Shown piece by piece: positions 2,684 through 48,156 of a stretch of DNA of 48,156 nt. A program made the position numbers and the translations under genes. The notes beneath the pieces were generated by a model, which was given only the letters and a program-made list of their open reading frames with translations, made no database searches and was not told the origin of the DNA. The first letter of the stretch is position 1. The number at the start of each line of letters is the position of its first letter. The stretch is from a virus, in IMG/VR virus record IMGVR_UViG_3300026533_000004, positions 1-48,156 of that record; one strand, given 5' to 3'.

Positions 2684-3130
2684 AGTAACTTAATCAAATC
2701 TTAACTATTTACAAGCTCTAAATATACCTCTCATTCATCACTATAAAATTGCATTTTATGTAACTCTTTATTGAATGTTACCATATTTTTAGGTTACATA
2801 ACTCCGTGTAACCGTTTTTTAAAACCTTTATAAACCCCTATTTTTCGATGTTTATAAGCATTTGTTACCTTGTATATCATTTTTACTTTATTTAAAGTGA
2901 AAAATAAAAAAGGAGAAATTAAAGAACAATATTTAACATGAATTTCCCCTTTTTTAAAACGAGGGTGTATAAATATGCTGAAAAAGGTTACAAAAATTTA
3001 ATCCTTTATAAATACCTATTTTATGGGATTTATAGATGTTTTTATGCAGAGTTACACTATTTTAATTGTAACTTATCTAAAATGTATAATTTATTAGATT
3101 GTAGGTTTAAGAATTTGTTAAGATATATAA
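2684..3130 (+). repeat. Dispersed 447-bp intergenic repeat, copy A
   Basis: Fills most of the gap between the divergent gp43-like and capsid genes and recurs at 23462-23908 (inverted) and 33546-33985. It has nine GTTAC/GTAAC pentamers (2685, 2760, 2777, 2793, 2808, 2864, 2987, 3051, 3068), several in inverted pairs (for example GGTTACA 2792-2798 with TGTAACC 2807-2813). A long hairpin has arms at 2906-2920 and 2941-2955. It contains an open frame (2938-3168, starting MNFPFFKTRV) with no ribosome-binding site, probably not translated. Function unknown; a protein-binding or recombination site would fit. Confidence 0.9.
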
Positions 3131-7243: not shown

Positions 7244-7813
7244 ATAATTAATACACTATTATTTAAAAATTGTAAAGTTAGAGGTATTAAATTTTGTATA
7301 AAATTATCTATAGATAAATGGATTGAGGTTAAAATATCATCATTAAAAAAAGAAGATGATAGATTAATTGGAGAGCTATATAAACTAAATAAGGGTGATA
7401 CTATAATAATTGCAGAAATAAGCCGTTTAGCTCGTAGTATTCAACAATTAACTTATATTGTAAAAGAACTTACAGATAAAGGTATTACTATAGTATTTGT
7501 AAAAGAGCAACTAGAGTTAAGTAATACTAAAATGAATATAACTAATAAAATAGTTTTATATACATTTGGAATACTTGCAGAAGTTGCAAGAGATTTACAT
7601 TCCATGCGAATTAAAGAGGGATTACAAAAGAATACTGCTAGGAAGAAAAAGAAGAGGGTATTTAATAAATTAATGGGTAAAGGTTTGGAGATACAAGGAT
7701 ATTTAGAATTAGGACTAAGTAAGCGTAAAATAGCAAAAAGGTTAAATGTAACTATAAATACTTTAGATACTTATTTAAAGTATTTTTATGAGAATGAATT
7801 AAATAATACTTGA
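7244..7813 (+). pseudogene. 5'-truncated serine recombinase (resolvase/invertase family)
   Basis: Open frame after a TAA at 7241. From about 7295 it reads as a serine recombinase: DKWIEVKISSLKKEDDRLIGELYKLNKGD, then the family signature TIIIAEISRLARSIQQL, GITIVFVKEQLEL, LYTFGILAEVARDLHSMRIKEGL and a C-terminal HTH (LGLSKRKIAKRLNVTINTLDTYL). The expected N-terminus with the catalytic serine (YxRVSTxxQ) is absent: upstream frames carry stops and no good start exists until 7532, inside the catalytic domain. It is therefore probably inactive, or at most a DNA-binding fragment from 7532. A degenerate early-type promoter (AATGTTCCTT, 7185-7194) remains upstream. Confidence 0.75.
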
Positions 7814-7838
7814 CATTTTATTAAAATTTTGATAGTAT
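7810..7838 (+). promoter_or_regulatory. Sigma70-type promoter for candidate RNA 1
   Basis: TTGACA (7810-7815), a 17-base spacer and TAGTAT (7833-7838). The -35 overlaps the stop codon of the recombinase remnant. No protein start follows, so the predicted product is a short RNA starting near 7842-7846. Confidence 0.7.
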
Positions 7839-7841
7839 TTT

Positions 7842-7950
7842 AACTGTGTGAGGATAAGGCAACCCTAGAGAGGTAAAACGGGTATATATAGTAGCATGAG
7901 ATAAAAATAATCCCACACTAAAAACTAGAGGTATAAATACCTCTAGTAGT
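7842..7950 (+). ncRNA. Candidate small structured RNA 1
   Basis: Begins about 5-8 bases after a strong promoter and ends at a perfect hairpin followed by T-rich sequence. GTGTG-A-GGAT (7846-7855) pairs with ATCC-CACAC (7910-7918), closing a ~70-base body. The 3' hairpin CTAGAGGTAT/ATACCTCTAG occupies 7925-7946. CTAGAG at 7865-7870 could instead pair with CTCTAG at 7941-7946, crossing the closing stem. Candidate RNA 2 at 10648 has the same 5'/3' closing sequence and topology. No known RNA family was recognised. Confidence 0.45.
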
Positions 7951-8446
7951 TTATTATAAACACTTTACCTACTTTTCTTAACTTTTCATAGTTATTTCTC
8001 CTAATAATATTAAATTTATCCCTTAAATTATTTAAAACATGTAAGGGTATAAATTTCCCCTCTCTTCGTTTATTTCGTTCTAATATTAAATTAAAATTAG
8101 TATTGAATACAACTATATTAATATCATAATTAGCTTTAATTGCAGGTTCTATTAAATTTTGAACACTATATTTACTTTCTTTATCCCATTCTAAATTAGT
8201 CATATCAATGATAATATTACTATTATTATTGATATAATCCTCTAATATAGCATTTAAATTAAAACTAACCTTATACTTTTTATAGTTATCATATTTTTCA
8301 TTGTAAGTATTCCCTACTATGCAATTTTCAAGTATATCATCAAAACTAATCACTTTATAAGAGTATTCTCTAGTTAATCTATGTCTAAACATAGTTTTAC
8401 CACTATTAGGTAATCCTGTTAATATTACTAATTGTTTTTGTTCCAT
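7943..8446 (-). CDS. P-loop kinase (AAA_33 / polynucleotide-kinase-like)
   Basis: 167 residues. The Walker A motif GLPNSGKT is at residues 11-18; a second-strand acid IIIDMTNLEWD at about 78-88 and the late IVVFNTNFNLILERNKRREG segment match small zeta-toxin/T4 polynucleotide-kinase-like P-loop enzymes. Such phage enzymes phosphorylate nucleic-acid 5' ends or nucleotides, often for RNA/DNA repair. Only the kinase domain is present, with no phosphatase. The TAG stop lies in the terminator hairpin of candidate RNA 1. Substrate cannot be deduced. Confidence 0.7.
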   Translation of the reverse strand: MEQKQLVILTGLPNSGKTMFRHRLTREYSYKVISFDDILENCIVGNTYNEKYDNYKKYKVSFNLNAILEDYINNNSNIIIDMTNLEWDKESKYSVQNLIEPAIKANYDINIVVFNTNFNLILERNKRREGKFIPLHVLNNLRDKFNIIRRNNYEKLRKVGKVFIINY

Positions 8447-8844: not shown

Positions 8845-9357
8845 ATGACAACACAAGAAATAAATGAATTATGTAATGTGATAATTCAAAATATAGATGT
8901 TTTTAGTGATACTCTAAAAAAATATATTGATAGTAAAGATAGTGAACTTAATAGCTCTATTGATAGTAAGATAACTACTGCAAAAGAGGATATTTTAAAT
9001 CAAATTAGTGTTAATGCAGAGGATTTAAAAGCACTTAAAGATTTACTTGATAGTTTAGACGGTGAAGCAGACGGAGAAGTAAATTTACAAAATGCACTAT
9101 TAAAACTATTAGATAGAGTTAATAAACTAGAGGAAGATAATCAAACTATTAAAAATGATTTAACTAATTGTCAAACAAATATTACTAATATTAGCAATAA
9201 TGTTAAACTTAATAGTGATAATTTAAATGCAGTAGTTGAATGTATGACTAATATAAAAGAGGCTATTAGTATTGCAGAGAGTAAATTTAAAATAATTGGA
9301 ACAGCAACTACTGATACTACTACTTCAGATACAACATCAGAGGATAATGCTCTATAA
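8845..9357 (+). CDS. Coiled-coil structural protein (possible head fibre)
   Basis: 170 residues. Residues 15-140 are nearly continuous amphipathic helix with heptads (VFSDTLKKYIDSKDSELNSSI, DLKALKDLLDSLDG, ALLKLLDRVNKLEEDNQTIK, DLTNCQTNITNISNNVKLN), ending with a Thr/Asp-rich low-complexity tail (TTDTTTSDTTSEDN). Long coiled coils are usual in phage fibres and scaffolds. It heads a three-gene plus operon whose last gene is a head-morphogenesis protein; the next gene starts on its stop (TAATG). Confidence 0.5.
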   Translation: MTTQEINELCNVIIQNIDVFSDTLKKYIDSKDSELNSSIDSKITTAKEDILNQISVNAEDLKALKDLLDSLDGEADGEVNLQNALLKLLDRVNKLEEDNQTIKNDLTNCQTNITNISNNVKLNSDNLNAVVECMTNIKEAISIAESKFKIIGTATTDTTTSDTTSEDNAL

Positions 9358-9746
9358 TGACATTTGAAGATTACATATCTCTAACTCAATTAGTGAAGTT
9401 AGAGATAGATATACGACCTAATTCTACTATTACTATTAATAATGCTTTTAAAATAGTTAAAGATAGAGTAAATAGAGTTAGTAATCAATATAATATAGAT
9501 TGTAAAGCATTATTAACAGATAATAGAGATAATAAGCAATATACTATATATTCAGATTTAATGGTATCTAAATACAATATGGATAGAGATATTATTGAAT
9601 TAAATATAAGGAAAATAACTACTGTTACTACTTTAGATATAGATACAATTAAGCATAATAACGATATTGAAGTAAATGAATATAATGTATCTATTGATAA
9701 TACTACTCCAAATATTGAAATAAATAGTGATAAAAATACTTTATAG
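9357..9746 (+). CDS. Hypothetical protein in head operon
   Basis: 129 residues, overlapping the previous stop by one base. N-terminal helix and strand pattern (TFEDYISLTQLVKLEIDIRPNSTI, TINNAFKIVKDRVNRVSNQYN), then a beta-rich half with many Asp/Asn. Its place between the coiled-coil gene and the head-morphogenesis gene suggests a virion or head-assembly role, but no motif identifies it. Confidence 0.55.
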   Translation: MTFEDYISLTQLVKLEIDIRPNSTITINNAFKIVKDRVNRVSNQYNIDCKALLTDNRDNKQYTIYSDLMVSKYNMDRDIIELNIRKITTVTTLDIDTIKHNNDIEVNEYNVSIDNTTPNIEINSDKNTL

Positions 9747-13431: not shown

Positions 13432-13460
13432 ATTATAACATAATGAACATTAAAATAAAA
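13432..13460 (-). promoter_or_regulatory. Early-type promoter with AATGNNCATT element (helicase operon)
   Basis: On the minus strand the element AATGTTCATT (13442-13451) is followed after four bases by TATAAT (13432-13437). The same element-to-(-10) spacing recurs before six other genes. The -35 hexamer is poor. Confidence 0.6.
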
Positions 13461-16677: not shown

Positions 16678-17373
16678 TTACTCTAAATAATCCTCACAAA
16701 TATCTCTACCCTTACACCATTTACAGATATAACTATTAGGATTAGTAGTTAAAGTATCTGCAATAAATATATTATCTAAATTAGTGATAATGTTATCTTG
16801 AATAAATGTAACTAATTCATCAATATCTATATCTATATAACTCTCTCTACCATATTGATAAATACCAATTCTAATAGAACTAATATATTCTTTAGGATTA
16901 TTATCAATATACTCTCTATATGCAAGATAAGCATAAATATAGAGTTGATGATTATCTCTAATAGTAACTTTAGCTCTACCTGTTTTTAAATCAACTATAT
17001 ATAATTTCTCATTTTCAATATCTATAGCTACAAAATCTATCTTTCCATATTTACTATTTTTAAAATATGGAGATAAATTATTTAAATATACCTCTTTTTC
17101 AACCTCTGCAATATTTGCATTTTTAGCAATAGATTTAATATAATAAACATAACCTTTTACTAAATTAATCTCATCTTTAGTAAAGCTATCATCTATTTCT
17201 AATTTAGGATTATTATATAATTCCTCTGCTAGTTGGTGCATTAAAATACCTTTACTAGCATATTCATTAGTAGTATCCTCTTGTGTATATTCATATTCAA
17301 ATGCCTTGTAGCAAGTGAGTATTCTTTTACTACTACTAGGTCTGAACGCATTTATTAAATCAAGTTTATTCAT
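16678..17373 (-). CDS. Cas4/RecB-like exonuclease (DUF2800)
   Basis: 231 residues. PD-(D/E)xK nuclease core: KYGKIDFVAID (D113) and LYIVDLKTGRA (D128, K130), then the QhxxY-like helix HQLYIYAYL. Cys21 plus the C-terminal CKWCKGRDIC give the four-cysteine pattern of the Fe-S cluster seen in Cas4 and AddB-type nucleases. It likely resects DNA ends for recombination or replication, next to the ssDNA-binding protein. Start overlaps the previous gene's stop (TAATG). Confidence 0.8.
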   Translation of the reverse strand: MNKLDLINAFRPSSSKRILTCYKAFEYEYTQEDTTNEYASKGILMHQLAEELYNNPKLEIDDSFTKDEINLVKGYVYYIKSIAKNANIAEVEKEVYLNNLSPYFKNSKYGKIDFVAIDIENEKLYIVDLKTGRAKVTIRDNHQLYIYAYLAYREYIDNNPKEYISSIRIGIYQYGRESYIDIDIDELVTFIQDNIITNLDNIFIADTLTTNPNSYICKWCKGRDICEDYLE

Positions 17374-23429: not shown

Positions 23430-23458
23430 ATTATAGCATAATGCACATTAAAAGTCAA
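23430..23458 (-). promoter_or_regulatory. Early-type promoter, best match (small frameshift gene)
   Basis: Minus-strand TTGACT (23453-23458), 17-base spacer containing AATGTGCATT (23440-23449), TATAAT (23430-23435). Confidence 0.75.
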
Positions 23459-23461
23459 GTA

Positions 23462-23908
23462 TTATATATCTTAACAAATTCTTAAACCTACAATCTAATA
23501 AATTATACATTTTAGATAAGTTACAATTAAAATAGTGTAACTCTGCATAAAAACATCTATAAATCTCATAAAATAGGTATTTATAAAAGATTAAATTTTT
23601 GTAACCGTTTTCAGCATATTTATACACTCTCGTTTTAAAAAAGGGGAAATTCATGTTAAATATTGTTCTTTAATTTCCCCTTTTTTATTTTTCACTTTAA
23701 ATAAGGTAAAAATGATATACAAGGTAACAAATGCTTATAAACACCGAAAAATAGGGGTTTATAAAGGTTTTAAAAAACGGTTACACGGAGTTATGTAACC
23801 TAAAAATATGGTAACATTCAATAAAGAGTTACATAAAATGCAATTTTATAGTGATAAATGAGAGGTATATTTAGAGCTTGTAAATAGTTAAGATTTGATT
23901 AAGTTACT
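23462..23908 (-). repeat. Dispersed 447-bp intergenic repeat, copy B (inverted)
   Basis: Inverted relative to copies A and C. Its hairpin is perfect: AAAAAAGGGGAAATT (23637-23651) with AATTTCCCCTTTTTT (23672-23686). It lies between the start of the small early gene and the end of the tape-measure gene and abuts the promoter at 23430-23458 on one side and a 19-bp palindrome on the other. The embedded MNFPFF frame is cut short differently from those in copies A and C, which argues against it being a gene. Confidence 0.9.
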
Positions 23909-23927
23909 AATCGTCAAATTGACGATT
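23909..23927. repeat. Perfect 19-bp palindrome next to repeat B
   Basis: AATCGTCAA-A-TTGACGATT immediately follows repeat B and ends five bases before the tape-measure stop. It is richer in G+C than its surroundings and has no T-tract, so it is more like a binding or recombination site than a terminator. Confidence 0.6.
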
Positions 23928-33489: not shown

Positions 33490-33545
33490 ACTTAGAATTA
33501 TATCAGAATTATAATTTTTAGTCACTATAATATCACAATTAATTT

Positions 33546-33985
33546 AGTAACTTAATCAAATCTTAACTATTTACAAGCTCTAAATATACCTTACATTTAT
33601 CACTATAAAATTGCATTTTATGTAACTCTTTATTGAATGTTACCGTATTTTTAGGTTACATAACTCCGTGTAACCGTTTTTTAAAACCTTTATAAATCCC
33701 TATTTTTCGGTGTTTATAAGCATTTGTTACCTTGTATATCATTTTTACCTTATTTAAAGTGAAAAATAAAAAGGGAGAAATTAAAGAACAATATTTAACA
33801 TGAATTTCCCCTTTTTTAAAACGAGGGTGTATAAATATGCTGAAAAAGGTTACAAAAATATAATCTTTAATAAACACCTATTTGATGGGATTTATAGATG
33901 TTTTTATGCAGAGTTACACTATTTTAGTTGTAACTTATCTAAAATGTATAATTTATTAAATTGTAGGTTTAAGAATTTGTTAAGA
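33546..33985 (+). repeat. Dispersed ~440-bp intergenic repeat, copy C
   Basis: Same orientation as copy A and likewise between divergent genes (terminase and gp46-like). It keeps the GTTAC/GTAAC sites and the hairpin with arms 33768-33782 and 33803-33817. The end nearest the gp46-like gene diverges from A and B after 33985. The embedded MNFPFF frame (33800-34009) and an opposite-strand frame are probably not genes. Confidence 0.9.
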
Positions 33986-34009
33986 ATTTTAATATTTAAA
34001 TATATATGA

Positions 34010-34039: not shown

Positions 34040-34384
34040 ATGTTTGATTTTAAACTATTACCTACTACAAATGATATTATTATCAATAATGATATTGAAA
34101 TTACTAATGAATTATATACGCATATATTAGTATCTCTCTTTGCAAATAAGGATATAGATATTATTCTTGATGAAAATGTAGGTAGTGATTTATATAAATA
34201 TTATCAATCTAAAATTACTACAAATACATTAACTAATATTAAGAATAGTATTAAAAATGCTCTAAATCAATTAAATTTAGACTATAATTTAGATATATCA
34301 ATAGTTAAAAATAGTATTCAAATAAATGTATATTTACTAGATGTATCTAATAATAATATTACTAAATATACATTTACTATATAG
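34040..34384 (+). CDS. Baseplate wedge protein (Mu gp46 / gpW-gp25-like)
   Basis: 114 residues; the start MFDFKLLPTTNDIIINNDIEITNELYTHILVSLFANKD and the later helix-strand pattern fit the phage GP46 family, which joins the tail hub to the wedge. It directly precedes the baseplate J-like gene, the same order as in Mu. Strong AAAAAGGAG ribosome-binding site and extended -10 promoter upstream. Confidence 0.7.
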   Translation: MFDFKLLPTTNDIIINNDIEITNELYTHILVSLFANKDIDIILDENVGSDLYKYYQSKITTNTLTNIKNSIKNALNQLNLDYNLDISIVKNSIQINVYLLDVSNNNITKYTFTI

Positions 34385-34395
34385 GAGTTATTAAC

Positions 34396-35697
34396 ATGCT
34401 GATTACTTATGATGATATTAAAAGAGATTTAAAAAATGAGTTCTTGAAACAGTTTCCTACTGTAAAAGTATTTGATAATAATACTTTTATATCTATATTT
34501 TTAAATATAATTGCATTTGGTATATATAATCTCCATAAATCTATTTTATTTTTACTAAAACAAACCTTTGCAAATACAGCAGATTTAGACCATTTAAAAT
34601 TACAAGCTACTAATAGATTAGAATATTTACAAGCTACTAAATCAAGTGGTAAAGTATGTATAAATGGAGATATTGGAACTACTATAAACAGTGGAGAGAT
34701 ATTTAATTTAAAAAATAGTAATTTGCAATTTAAACTTTTAGATAATGTAACTATAAATGAAATTAGTTATTTAAATGTTGATATAGATAGTATATATAGT
34801 TATGAAAAGATATGTAGTATCAAATTTAAAAATTATACCTCTTTTATAGTTGGTATGAGTATTACTATAGAAAATGCTACTATTAATGAATTTAACGGTA
34901 TATGGACTATAAATAAGATTATAGATAGATATACTATTGAAATTACTATAAATGATAGTTTACTATTGCAAGAGGATTTATCTAGTAGCTCTATTAAAAT
35001 TAAAGCTAATATAGGTATTGGTAATATAGAAAGTGTAGAAGTTGGTAAAATAAATAATATATCTCCATTTTCTATATTAGAAAGTTCTAATCCAAATATA
35101 GATTTTGTAGGTATTAATTATAATGGATTAACAGGTGGTAGAGATAATGAAACAGATGAAGAGTATAGAGTTAGATACTTGCAATTTTTAAGAGAGCCAC
35201 AGGCATTTTTTAATGCAAATTGGATTAAATATAAAATATTAGATAATTTTCCTAAAGTTACTAGGGTTGATATTTTAGGAAATGAAGATGAGGTTAATAT
35301 ATATGTAATAAATACTAATGCAATAGATTTAATTGTAGATACTAATACTATTGATAGTATTAAAACATATCTATTTGATACATATAAACCTATTAATCTA
35401 TCTACTGATAAATTTAATGTATTAAATCCTACACAACAAGAAATTAGCTTTAATTTACTTAATATTAAACCCTCTCCAAATAATGCTTTTAAAGATGTAA
35501 TAAAGCAAGAATTATATAATTATATTATTAGCTTACCAATAGGTGGATATATGCGATTAGACCTATTAAAAGGGTTTATTTATAATATCAGAGACTATGA
35601 AAATAACTACTATATAGATAGTTTTGATATATCACTAAATAATGATGTAGATATAGCATTAGGTAGTATTTTAATACCTAAAATAGAAATATTATAA
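34396..35697 (+). CDS. Baseplate J-like protein (Mu gp47)
   Basis: 433 residues. The diagnostic J-like segment is GLTGGRDNETDEEYRVRYLQFLREPQAFFNANWIKYKIL (about 247-285), followed by FPKVTRVDILGNEDEVNIYVI (about 289-309). The N-terminal YDDIKRDLKNEFLKQFPTVKVFDNNTFISIFLNIIA segment is also family-like. It builds the wedge arms of the contractile-tail baseplate. It lies 11 bases after the gp46-like gene. Confidence 0.85.
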   Translation: MLITYDDIKRDLKNEFLKQFPTVKVFDNNTFISIFLNIIAFGIYNLHKSILFLLKQTFANTADLDHLKLQATNRLEYLQATKSSGKVCINGDIGTTINSGEIFNLKNSNLQFKLLDNVTINEISYLNVDIDSIYSYEKICSIKFKNYTSFIVGMSITIENATINEFNGIWTINKIIDRYTIEITINDSLLLQEDLSSSSIKIKANIGIGNIESVEVGKINNISPFSILESSNPNIDFVGINYNGLTGGRDNETDEEYRVRYLQFLREPQAFFNANWIKYKILDNFPKVTRVDILGNEDEVNIYVINTNAIDLIVDTNTIDSIKTYLFDTYKPINLSTDKFNVLNPTQQEISFNLLNIKPSPNNAFKDVIKQELYNYIISLPIGGYMRLDLLKGFIYNIRDYENNYYIDSFDISLNNDVDIALGSILIPKIEIL

Positions 35698-36913: not shown

Positions 36914-37414
36914 ATGAGTGGGATAGATTGGTTAATATTAAAAGATTTTGATAATGGTATCAATATAAGGAATTTAACAAGGAAATATGATGTAAATAGT
37001 GCATATATTAAATATGTTATATCTACTAAAGGTAATGTAGAGCTTATTAAAAAAATGAGGAATAGGCGAAGTGATACAATTATTAAAAATGAATTATTGG
37101 ATAAATTTTTAGATTTGTATAGTAGTAATATAAAATTAAGAGATATTGCAAATCAATTATATCTTACTAAAAATACTATAATATCTACTATCTCAAATAG
37201 AAAATTAAAATTGAGAGATATTGATAAACAAGAAATTGATAAATTGTATAATAAATTATTCAATATTAGTAGTATTGCAAATCAGTTGTATTTACCTTAT
37301 CATCTAGTTAAGGATTATTTAAATATTAAAAAGAATAATCTAAATATTAAAACTATCAATCCTTATTTTTTAAAAAGAGGTAAAATATCAGACGCTTATA
37401 TAAGTTTTTCATAA
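36914..37414 (+). CDS. Protein with repeated helix-turn-helix motifs
   Basis: 166 residues. Three HTH-like units: about 17-34 (INIRNLTRKYDVNSAYIKYVI), 74-95 (IKLRDIANQLYLTKNTIISTI) and 113-134 (FNISSIANQLYLPYHLVKDYL). The last two share the core IANQLYL, a clear internal duplication. Probably DNA-binding. It is 10 bases after the signal-peptide gene and 46 bases before the Csx20-like gene, so it may regulate this cassette, as Aca proteins do for anti-CRISPR operons; that comparison is inference. Confidence 0.6.
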   Translation: MSGIDWLILKDFDNGINIRNLTRKYDVNSAYIKYVISTKGNVELIKKMRNRRSDTIIKNELLDKFLDLYSSNIKLRDIANQLYLTKNTIISTISNRKLKLRDIDKQEIDKLYNKLFNISSIANQLYLPYHLVKDYLNIKKNNLNIKTINPYFLKRGKISDAYISFS

Positions 37415-37459
37415 GCAATATTTGTTTATAATTTTATTAAAAATTTAAAGGATAGAAAC

Positions 37460-37849
37460 ATGAAATTACTTGTAATCAGCAACCATACATTAACAAATGA
37501 GCAAATTAGTGACGCTTATAAAAGCCTAAATGTAGATAAAATAGAATATCTACCTTATGAGTTAAGAGAACTTTGGGGTAATATTAATCCCGAATATAGT
37601 GAAATAGAGGTAGAAAGTTATATCCAACCTATTGAAGATTTTATTCATGAAAATGTAAATGTTGATGATTATGTATTAGTGCAAGGTGAATTTACAGCAA
37701 CTTTTTATATTGTAGATAATTTATTGCAATTAGGTGCAACTCCTATAGTAGCTACTACACAAAGAGTAGTTAAAGAGGTTCAAAAAGGTGATAAAGTTGT
37801 TAAAACAACCGAATTTAAACATATTAGATACAGACCTTATTTTATTTAA
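37460..37849 (+). CDS. csx20: Csx20-like protein, putative cyclic-oligoadenylate ring nuclease
   Basis: 129 residues over the full length of the family. Recognisable pattern: short strand KLLVISNHTLTNEQISDAYKSL, YLPYELRELWGNINPEYSEI (30-49), the core DDYVLVQGEFTATFYIVDNLLQLGATPIVATTQRVV (69-104), and the final FKHIRYRPYF (119-128). In type III CRISPR loci Csx20 is a CARF-related ancillary protein proposed to degrade or bind cyclic oligoadenylate second messengers. A phage copy outside any CRISPR locus suggests counter-defence. It has its own TATAAT (37427-37432) and AAAGGATAG leader. The family call is made from memory of the pattern; enzymatic activity is inference. Confidence 0.65.
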   Translation: MKLLVISNHTLTNEQISDAYKSLNVDKIEYLPYELRELWGNINPEYSEIEVESYIQPIEDFIHENVNVDDYVLVQGEFTATFYIVDNLLQLGATPIVATTQRVVKEVQKGDKVVKTTEFKHIRYRPYFI

Positions 37850-37914: not shown

Positions 37915-39399
37915 ATGCCAAGTTTACAAAGACCATCAATAACATTAAATATATCTCCTAGCATTACTAAACCTAGTATAGAACATAGAGTTTTGATTAT
38001 AGGTGAAATTGGAGATACTAGCACAGTAGAAACAAATAAAGTTATCAAAGATATTCAACTTACAGATATAGATATATTTGGTAAAGATAGTCAGTTATAT
38101 TATGCAATTCAAAAGTTTAAATCTATAAATAAATTAAATATTTTAGATGTTTTACCTATTGCAAAAGGTTCTAGTAAATCTACAAGCGATATTACTATTA
38201 CAGGAACAGCAACTAAAAATAATAAATTAACTTTTACATTAAATAATAATTTTGTTGAGGTTGTTGTTAATAATTCAGATAGTGATATAACTATTGCTAC
38301 TAATTTAGAAAGTGCATTAAATGCAAATAGTTACTTTACTGATGTATTTACAATTAGTAGAACTGATAATAAAGTAACTTTAGAAACTAAACAACCTAGT
38401 GCTACATTAAATAATCAAACAGGAGTTATTACATTAGATAATTTAGATAATGGTATTACAAATACTATAAGTTATTTTAGTGGTGGTGCTAGTTCTACAC
38501 TCCCTGATAATTATTTATTTGATATATTAGATGAAAGATATAATAGTATCATTTATGATTATTCATTGGGATTAAATGCAGTTAGAGTTTATTTAGAAGC
38601 TCAATTTAATTTACTCAATAAAATTAATGATGGTGTAGGATTTACTACAATTAAAGATACTTTATTTAATTTTAAATCTATAGTAAATAGTCAAAATTAT
38701 AAAACACAAGTTATTTTTGGAAATATTTGTCAAATGGATTATAATGTATTTTCATTAGTTGCTACATCTGAAATAGTAGCTATAAGAGCATTAAGATTAA
38801 CAGATAAAGCAACTATAGCTAATTATGTATCTCAAAATATAGAAACTTTTGGTGGTATTAGTTTAGCAAGTTTACCATACTTTAATACTCCTTTATCATT
38901 CCCTAAACCTAATGGTTGTATTAATGAAGAGGATTTAATTAATGTAATTAATGCAGGTGGTTCATTATGGGTAAATAATGGTATTACTGTATTATCAGAA
39001 GTAGTTACTACTTATAAAACTAATAATCTTGGTGATGAAGATAAAAGTTTTAAATACCTTAATTATGTTGATACATTATCAGTAATTAGAGAGTATTTAA
39101 CTATTGGTCTTAGAAAAAGATACGCACAAGTAAGGCTTACAGACGGTAATTTAATACCTAATAAATCTATTACTAATAAAGGAGCTATCAAAGCAAGTAT
39201 TATTAAATATTTAAATGAACTTGCAGATTTAGCATTAGTTAGAAAAGGTTTAGATAAATTTATTAGTGATAATTTAATTATTACTGAAGATTTAGAAACA
39301 GACACAATTACATTTAATTGTAAAGTTCCTATTGTAGTGCAACTTAGAAATATTCAAGGTAATATTATTGAAGTATTAGAGATTGAAAGTAGTATATAA
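37915..39399 (+). CDS. Contractile tail sheath protein (Mu gpL-like)
   Basis: 494 residues. The sheath signature is present: N-terminal RPSITLNISPSITKPSIEHRVLIIGEIGD, a central inserted domain (about 85-185, beta-rich), and the conserved C-terminal part with GINTITVLSE-like GGSLWVNNGITVLSEVVTTYKT, RYAQVRLTDGN, and a final domain CKVPIVVQLRNIQGNIIEVLEI. It polymerises round the tube and contracts. The next gene starts on its stop codon. Confidence 0.85.
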   Translation: MPSLQRPSITLNISPSITKPSIEHRVLIIGEIGDTSTVETNKVIKDIQLTDIDIFGKDSQLYYAIQKFKSINKLNILDVLPIAKGSSKSTSDITITGTATKNNKLTFTLNNNFVEVVVNNSDSDITIATNLESALNANSYFTDVFTISRTDNKVTLETKQPSATLNNQTGVITLDNLDNGITNTISYFSGGASSTLPDNYLFDILDERYNSIIYDYSLGLNAVRVYLEAQFNLLNKINDGVGFTTIKDTLFNFKSIVNSQNYKTQVIFGNICQMDYNVFSLVATSEIVAIRALRLTDKATIANYVSQNIETFGGISLASLPYFNTPLSFPKPNGCINEEDLINVINAGGSLWVNNGITVLSEVVTTYKTNNLGDEDKSFKYLNYVDTLSVIREYLTIGLRKRYAQVRLTDGNLIPNKSITNKGAIKASIIKYLNELADLALVRKGLDKFISDNLIITEDLETDTITFNCKVPIVVQLRNIQGNIIEVLEIESSI

Positions 39400-47644: not shown

Positions 47645-48156
47645 TTAATGTGGGACATCTGTATCACTTACACCCCAAACAACTTGTGTCATTTTATGTT
47701 TGTGGGTATCCCCTACATTTACACCATTGTGAGTAAAGCTACCACTTGGAGAATTAAATTTAATACCTACACTTGCATTTACTTCAAATACTTTACAATT
47801 AAAAGTAAGATTATCAGTATTAAATTTAATATTAGGTGCTGTTAAACTTATAGTATCACTTGCAGTTAAATTAATATTAGTAGCTTGTAAATTATAATCT
47901 TTAACAATATTCTCATTTAAATTACTTCCTATACTTATATTTTTATCTTTACCTATATTCTCATTACTATTACTATTTATAAATATGTTACTATCATTTG
48001 ATATATTTACATTTATATTTTTTACATTTAGATTATAAACTTTATCTACATTTACATTTTTATTATTACCTATATCCTCATTTAAATTACTTCCTATACT
48101 TATATTTTTATCATTTTTTATATCCTCATTAAGATTATTTTTAATATTACTATTTA
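47645..48156 (-). CDS. Baseplate spike, C-terminal part with HxH tip
   Basis: This is the continuation of the spike gene that starts at 694. It reads through the end of the repeat region and then into a less repetitive beta-rich stretch (ATNINLTASDTISLTAPNI), ending with a segment containing GVNVGDTHKHKM and the final residues SDTDVPH. The DTHKH segment matches the HxH tip motif of P2/phi92-type membrane-piercing spikes, where the histidines hold an iron ion at the needle apex. The TAA stop is at 47645-47647, 12 bases from the convergent 796-residue gene. The tip motif is seen directly; metal binding is inferred from the family. Confidence 0.8.
   Translation of the reverse strand, partial: NSNIKNNLNEDIKNDKNISIGSNLNEDIGNNKNVNVDKVYNLNVKNINVNISNDSNIFINSNSNENIGKDKNISIGSNLNENIVKDYNLQATNINLTASDTISLTAPNIKFNTDNLTFNCKVFEVNASVGIKFNSPSGSFTHNGVNVGDTHKHKMTQVVWGVSDTDVPH
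47971..48156. repeat. Terminal redundancy: duplicate of bases 1-186
   Basis: Aligned at a fixed offset of 47970, this segment equals bases 1-186 except at positions 99, 100 and 106 (tt and t at the start, cc and c here). The differing bases match the second internal 144-bp unit (near 243-250). It is either an assembly overlap of a circular molecule whose end was built from the wrong repeat copy, or a real additional repeat. Both interpretations keep the spike gene in frame (186 = 62 codons). Confidence 0.85.

Follow-up and report, generated by a model that had tools for sequence, protein, structure and literature searches.

Cellular Csx20 and the ring nucleases of phages

Cells reset type III CRISPR signalling with Csx20, one purified member of which cleaves cA4 in vitro and, at ten-fold more enzyme, cA3 too (Hoikkala et al. 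2025, PMC12409355). The same study associates the family with cA4 effectors and reports it in 4 of 28,114 phage genomes; both the family and the idea of a phage-borne Csx20 are thus already published. Our search of the open-licence literature turned up no study in which a phage Csx20 had been tested. Phage ring nucleases of other families comprise AcrIII-1 (DUF1874) and AcrIII-2 (SAVED; PMC12751052), as well as Crn4b (PMC12830947), all of them likewise phage-encoded, with degradation of cyclic oligoadenylates either demonstrated or proposed. The native anti-CRISPR role of AcrIII-1 is disputed (Nature 640 E8, as cited in PMC12751052), and because AcrIII-1 is the model case, this dispute counts against an anti-CRISPR reading of the protein described below. 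What is new here is this particular Csx20 copy, together with the recurrence of the gene in phages with different structural genes.

By scanning genomes we retrieved csx20 from 80 cellular loci, spread over many phyla, and surveyed their gene contexts by rounds of BLAST. Type III cas genes or csx1 occur in the vicinity of no fewer than 63 of these loci, and the true number may be higher, since many of the contigs are short. The first-pass annotation had presented Csx20 as a protein proposed from type III loci to remove cyclic oligoadenylate; the link to type III loci stands, but the activity is no longer merely proposed, as cleavage has been shown (PMC12409355). For three chromosomal copies from Campylobacterota (L011, L017, L027), no cas genes were found nearby. 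At two other loci (L019, L036), about 50 residues in frame before Csx20 resemble the end of a Csx1-type protein, an arrangement that agrees with known CARF-HEPN-Csx20 fusions.

A Csx20 protein encoded among phage tail genes

The stretch of DNA analysed here, referred to as the window, spans 48,156 bases and comes from IMG/VR, where it is recorded as a virus. It contains genes for major head, portal, terminase, tape-measure, sheath, baseplate, endolysin, polymerase and helicase proteins; given the head, tail-sheath, baseplate and other structural genes, it therefore belongs to a contractile-tailed phage. The csx20 reading frame (Table 1) runs from ATG to TAA and encodes 129 residues. That this protein matches Csx20 from end to end, as had been claimed from inspection, was borne out: the frame and the quoted motifs are present, and the curated NCBIfam profile NF040559 aligns over its entire length (3.9e-36; positions 1-124 of 124). 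In the profile check proposed at that stage, the score was 124 bits, far over the curated cutoff of 70; PADLOC contributed three further Csx20 models with a match, the best at 5.9e-38. Even with E values of up to 1 allowed, the window protein had no match in Pfam; it also lacked a significant PHROG family and a significant sequence match among solved structures. With the DUF1874 domain absent at this Pfam threshold the protein does not belong to AcrIII-1, and AcrIII-2 and Crn4b are likewise other families, to which it has no Pfam match.

Across 61 cellular relatives aligned to the phage copy, nine residues never vary (H9, Q15, D70, V72, L73, Q75, G76, R102 and H121), and the phage copy keeps all of them. 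Curated profiles, conserved residues and the predicted model together establish it as a member of Csx20. It resembles the cellular proteins of NF040559 in its whole-length profile match, its invariant residues, its length and probably its predicted fold, but differs from them in being phage-borne without type III cas genes, and in its divergence. The best cellular identity among the 80 loci is 47% (Methanocaldococcaceae). Of the 25 positions conserved in 85% or more of the cellular proteins, six differ from the consensus in the window protein; G79T and Y97V, two of these changes, affect positions where cellular Csx20 varies little or not at all. Cellular proteins show a median of one such departure and a maximum of six, a number in which the window protein equals the most deviant of them; in the csx20 tree it sits on a long branch.

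An AlphaFold2 model of the window protein reached a pLDDT of 96.6. In a fold search of the PDB, its top matches were mostly CARF or SAVED sensors and ring nucleases, including Csm6, Cdn1, Sso2081, Sis0455, Cam1, Can2, Cap5, Cap4 and CalpL; the structural comparison with CARF models that had been suggested thus points to a fold of this kind, though with a best E of 0.013 and no match below 0.001. H9 is located in the beta1-alpha1 loop of the model, between the strand at residues 2-6 and the helix at residues 13-22. This corresponds to the motif-I loop, in which Csx15, AcrIII-2 and Crn1 have their catalytic residue (PMC13148439), making H9 a candidate catalytic residue of the phage protein. Conceivably, the changes at G79 and Y97 could alter catalysis yet keep binding, leaving a protein that would hide the signal by binding cA4 tightly rather than cleaving it; sponge proteins of this sort, directed at cyclic nucleotides, are indeed known from phages (PMC12409355). 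We consider such a sponge unlikely, however, given that the invariant set is intact, H9 and H121 included, and that the tested Csx20 is an enzyme (PMC12409355).

As had been noted from the sequence, csx20 lies among tail genes, flanked by baseplate genes (34040-35697) on one side and the tail sheath gene on the other. The product of its immediate upstream neighbour gave weak matches to NCBIfam HTH_Cbp1 (8e-4, with 19 bits where the cutoff is 140) and Pfam HTH_40 (0.003, below cutoff), and a part of this helix-turn-helix-like protein in the control of csx20 is possible. The csx20 gene may be transcribed on its own, from its own promoter, which would suit a protein that is needed early. A TATAAT box occurs at -48 to -19 in 15 of the 31 window genes with intergenic upstream DNA, compared to a background of 9-13%, and the AAAGGAT leader is also found 5' of other genes of this phage; a sigma-70 scan around csx20 remained at chance level. 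An extended motif, AATGTTC-N2-TATG-N-TA, precedes genes at window positions 13451, 16664, 17861, 20157 and 45190, mostly replication genes, and in several cases continues into the TATAAT box. It looks like a promoter class of this phage, and csx20 is without the extended part.

Table 1. Position and basis of csx20 and its surrounding features in the window
Feature	Position	Strand	Basis
csx20, candidate anti-type III CRISPR ring nuclease	37460..37849	+	NF040559, PADLOC, nine invariant residues, AlphaFold2 model
Baseplate wedge protein, upstream of csx20	34396..35697	+	phrog_6, 2.3e-39
Upstream neighbour, 166 residues, resembling repeated helix-turn-helix units	36914..37414	+	weak matches only
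TATAAT, putative -10 element of a csx20 promoter	37427..37432	+	sequence; function inferred
AAAGGAT, putative ribosome-binding site of csx20	37447..37453	+	sequence
Tail sheath protein, downstream neighbour	37915..39399	+	phrog_165, 7.3e-38

Proposed role against type III immunity

The window contains no CRISPR array, and no type III cas gene was detected among the 51 open reading frames scanned. The only other Cas-named match in this set is a Cas4-like PD-(D/E)XK nuclease, most likely encoded at 16678-17373 as judged by sequence. Nucleases of this kind are common in phages. The earlier statement that the window has neither cas genes nor an array thus holds for the array and for type III cas genes, but has to be qualified for the Cas4-like nuclease. 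The Csx20 of the window is therefore encoded by a virus without a type III system of its own. Such a phage offers Csx20 no system of its own to regulate, which supports the proposal that the protein is directed against type III immunity. Considering also that cA4 cleavage has been shown for one cellular Csx20 (PMC12409355) and that relatives of the window protein reside mostly in or near type III loci, a candidate anti-type III ring nuclease, as originally put forward, is the best-supported reading.

We consider it likely that csx20 is an accessory gene of the phage, the product of which would degrade cA4 and blunt type III immunity as an anti-CRISPR. With its compact, predicted CARF-like Rossmann fold, the phage protein would probably dimerise, bind cA4 and cut it into short linear pieces, as the tested cellular Csx20 does. 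Upon infection of a type III host, Cas10 would sense phage RNA and give rise to cA4, which phage Csx20 may destroy in time to keep Csx1 and similar effectors from arresting the cell; we infer that this is how the gene benefits the phage. Recurrence in phages with other structural genes and the putative TATAAT and AAAGGAT leader also favour this reading; the departures from the cellular consensus, the long branch and the lack of a PDB match below E 0.001 weigh against it. As the tested Csx20 also degraded cA3 at ten-fold higher enzyme (PMC12409355), the main target might instead be another signal, such as the cA3 of CBASS or NucC-type systems, in which case the protein would be an anti-CBASS factor rather than an anti-type III one. 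This is highly unlikely, since the cA3 activity is minor, Csx20 is linked with cA4 effectors (PMC12409355) and the relatives occur in type III loci.

A phage copy that is clearly Csx20, together with the copies in phages with other structural genes, provides a testable case for the takeover of a host reset enzyme by phages. The proteins of the window, of L112 and of the JD-Fnp phages described below could be compared with cellular Csx20 in speed and specificity, a comparison that touches the dispute over whether viral ring nucleases serve as anti-CRISPRs in nature.

Csx20 in other phages, the host and the carrier genome

That a phage carries Csx20 at all has a precedent in the four phage genomes reported previously (PMC12409355), a point on which the original annotation needs updating. 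Csx20-like proteins are encoded next to structural genes in Fusobacterium phages JD-Fnp1, 4, 6 and 7, which may or may not be the four published ones. Like the window protein, they are phage-borne and adjoin structural genes, but they are far more divergent: the JD-Fnp1 protein reaches 48 bits, under the cutoff of 70, and misses several conserved residues, while the window protein is well over this cutoff. Phage ctKpZ937, which yielded a weak Csx20-like match, is possibly a further carrier. A scan of IMG/VR added one more phage type with Csx20, represented by the contigs G700 and G701 (L112, L113), where the protein is again phage-borne and over the cutoff, but the phage type and the site of the gene, which adjoins terminase genes, differ from those of the window. 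In G701, csx20 is split across the contig ends, and as these ends share 28 bases, the 46-kb genome looks circular. The portal and head families of G701 differ from those of the window phage, and at the protein level the overlap between the two is limited to csx20 and a weakly matching terminase. The Csx20 proteins of the window and G700 are 40% identical and group in the tree without strong support (83/78), and a single clade of the window and JD-Fnp genes is not rejected (p 0.41).

These carriers also bear on whether csx20 might be a host gene that was acquired by chance and is now decaying, or has another role in the tail-gene cluster. While the long branch, the six changes at conserved positions and the location among tail genes would fit such a passenger, the frame is open, all invariant residues are kept, the gene has its own TATAAT/AAAGGAT leader, and the site of csx20 varies among phages that differ in their structural genes, all of which makes this explanation quite unlikely. 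For Csx20 as an anti-type III protein, the wider generalization has, in our judgement, about an even chance of being correct: that viruses have in it a mobile off-switch for type III CRISPR, which unlike phages gained repeatedly or handed on to one another where they have hosts in common, and that it merits an anti-CRISPR name of its own beside AcrIII-1 and AcrIII-2.

The closest relative found for the capsid protein of the window phage is encoded by a Campylobacterota prophage (3e-40), with weaker relatives in Salmonella phages (1e-24), Bacillota (5e-21) and Fusobacteriota (4e-9). Three genes are common to G701 and this same prophage, and Csx20 exceeds the cutoff in 34 of 298 sampled Campylobacterota genomes, which suggests that the host of the window phage is perhaps a member of this phylum. 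Spacers from the fetched loci gave only matches of 17-27 bases to the phage, all in AT-rich DNA and none of them spacer-like. An adjacent pair of small genes, at 8845-9746 in the window, 7256-8370 in a Campylobacterota prophage (L091) and 3981-4805 in L112, looks shared by the window phage, G700/G701 and this prophage; the links to the prophage come from tblastn, that between the window and G701 from inspection only.

IMG/VR scans with the csx20, sheath and terminase sequences of the window retrieved no close phage relatives, and the 24 kb (half) of the window that we searched against a phage collection had no DNA-level relative there. Positions 1-694 and 47645-48156 form one gene with 24-nt-period repeats that is in frame across the joined contig ends, so that the genome may be near complete, though the ends fall in a repetitive gene. 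The terminal 186 nt form a repeat of 98% identity, so that either circularity or a break at a repeat may explain these ends. Elsewhere in the window, three dispersed copies of a repeat, each about 450 nt long, are 95-98% identical (2684-3130, 23446-23910 and 33544-34008), with the middle one inverted; Rfam returned no match for them. The same end of each copy points at the start of a gene block (head, 3216; primase-like, 23067; baseplate, 34040), and the repeat is possibly a repeated control region.
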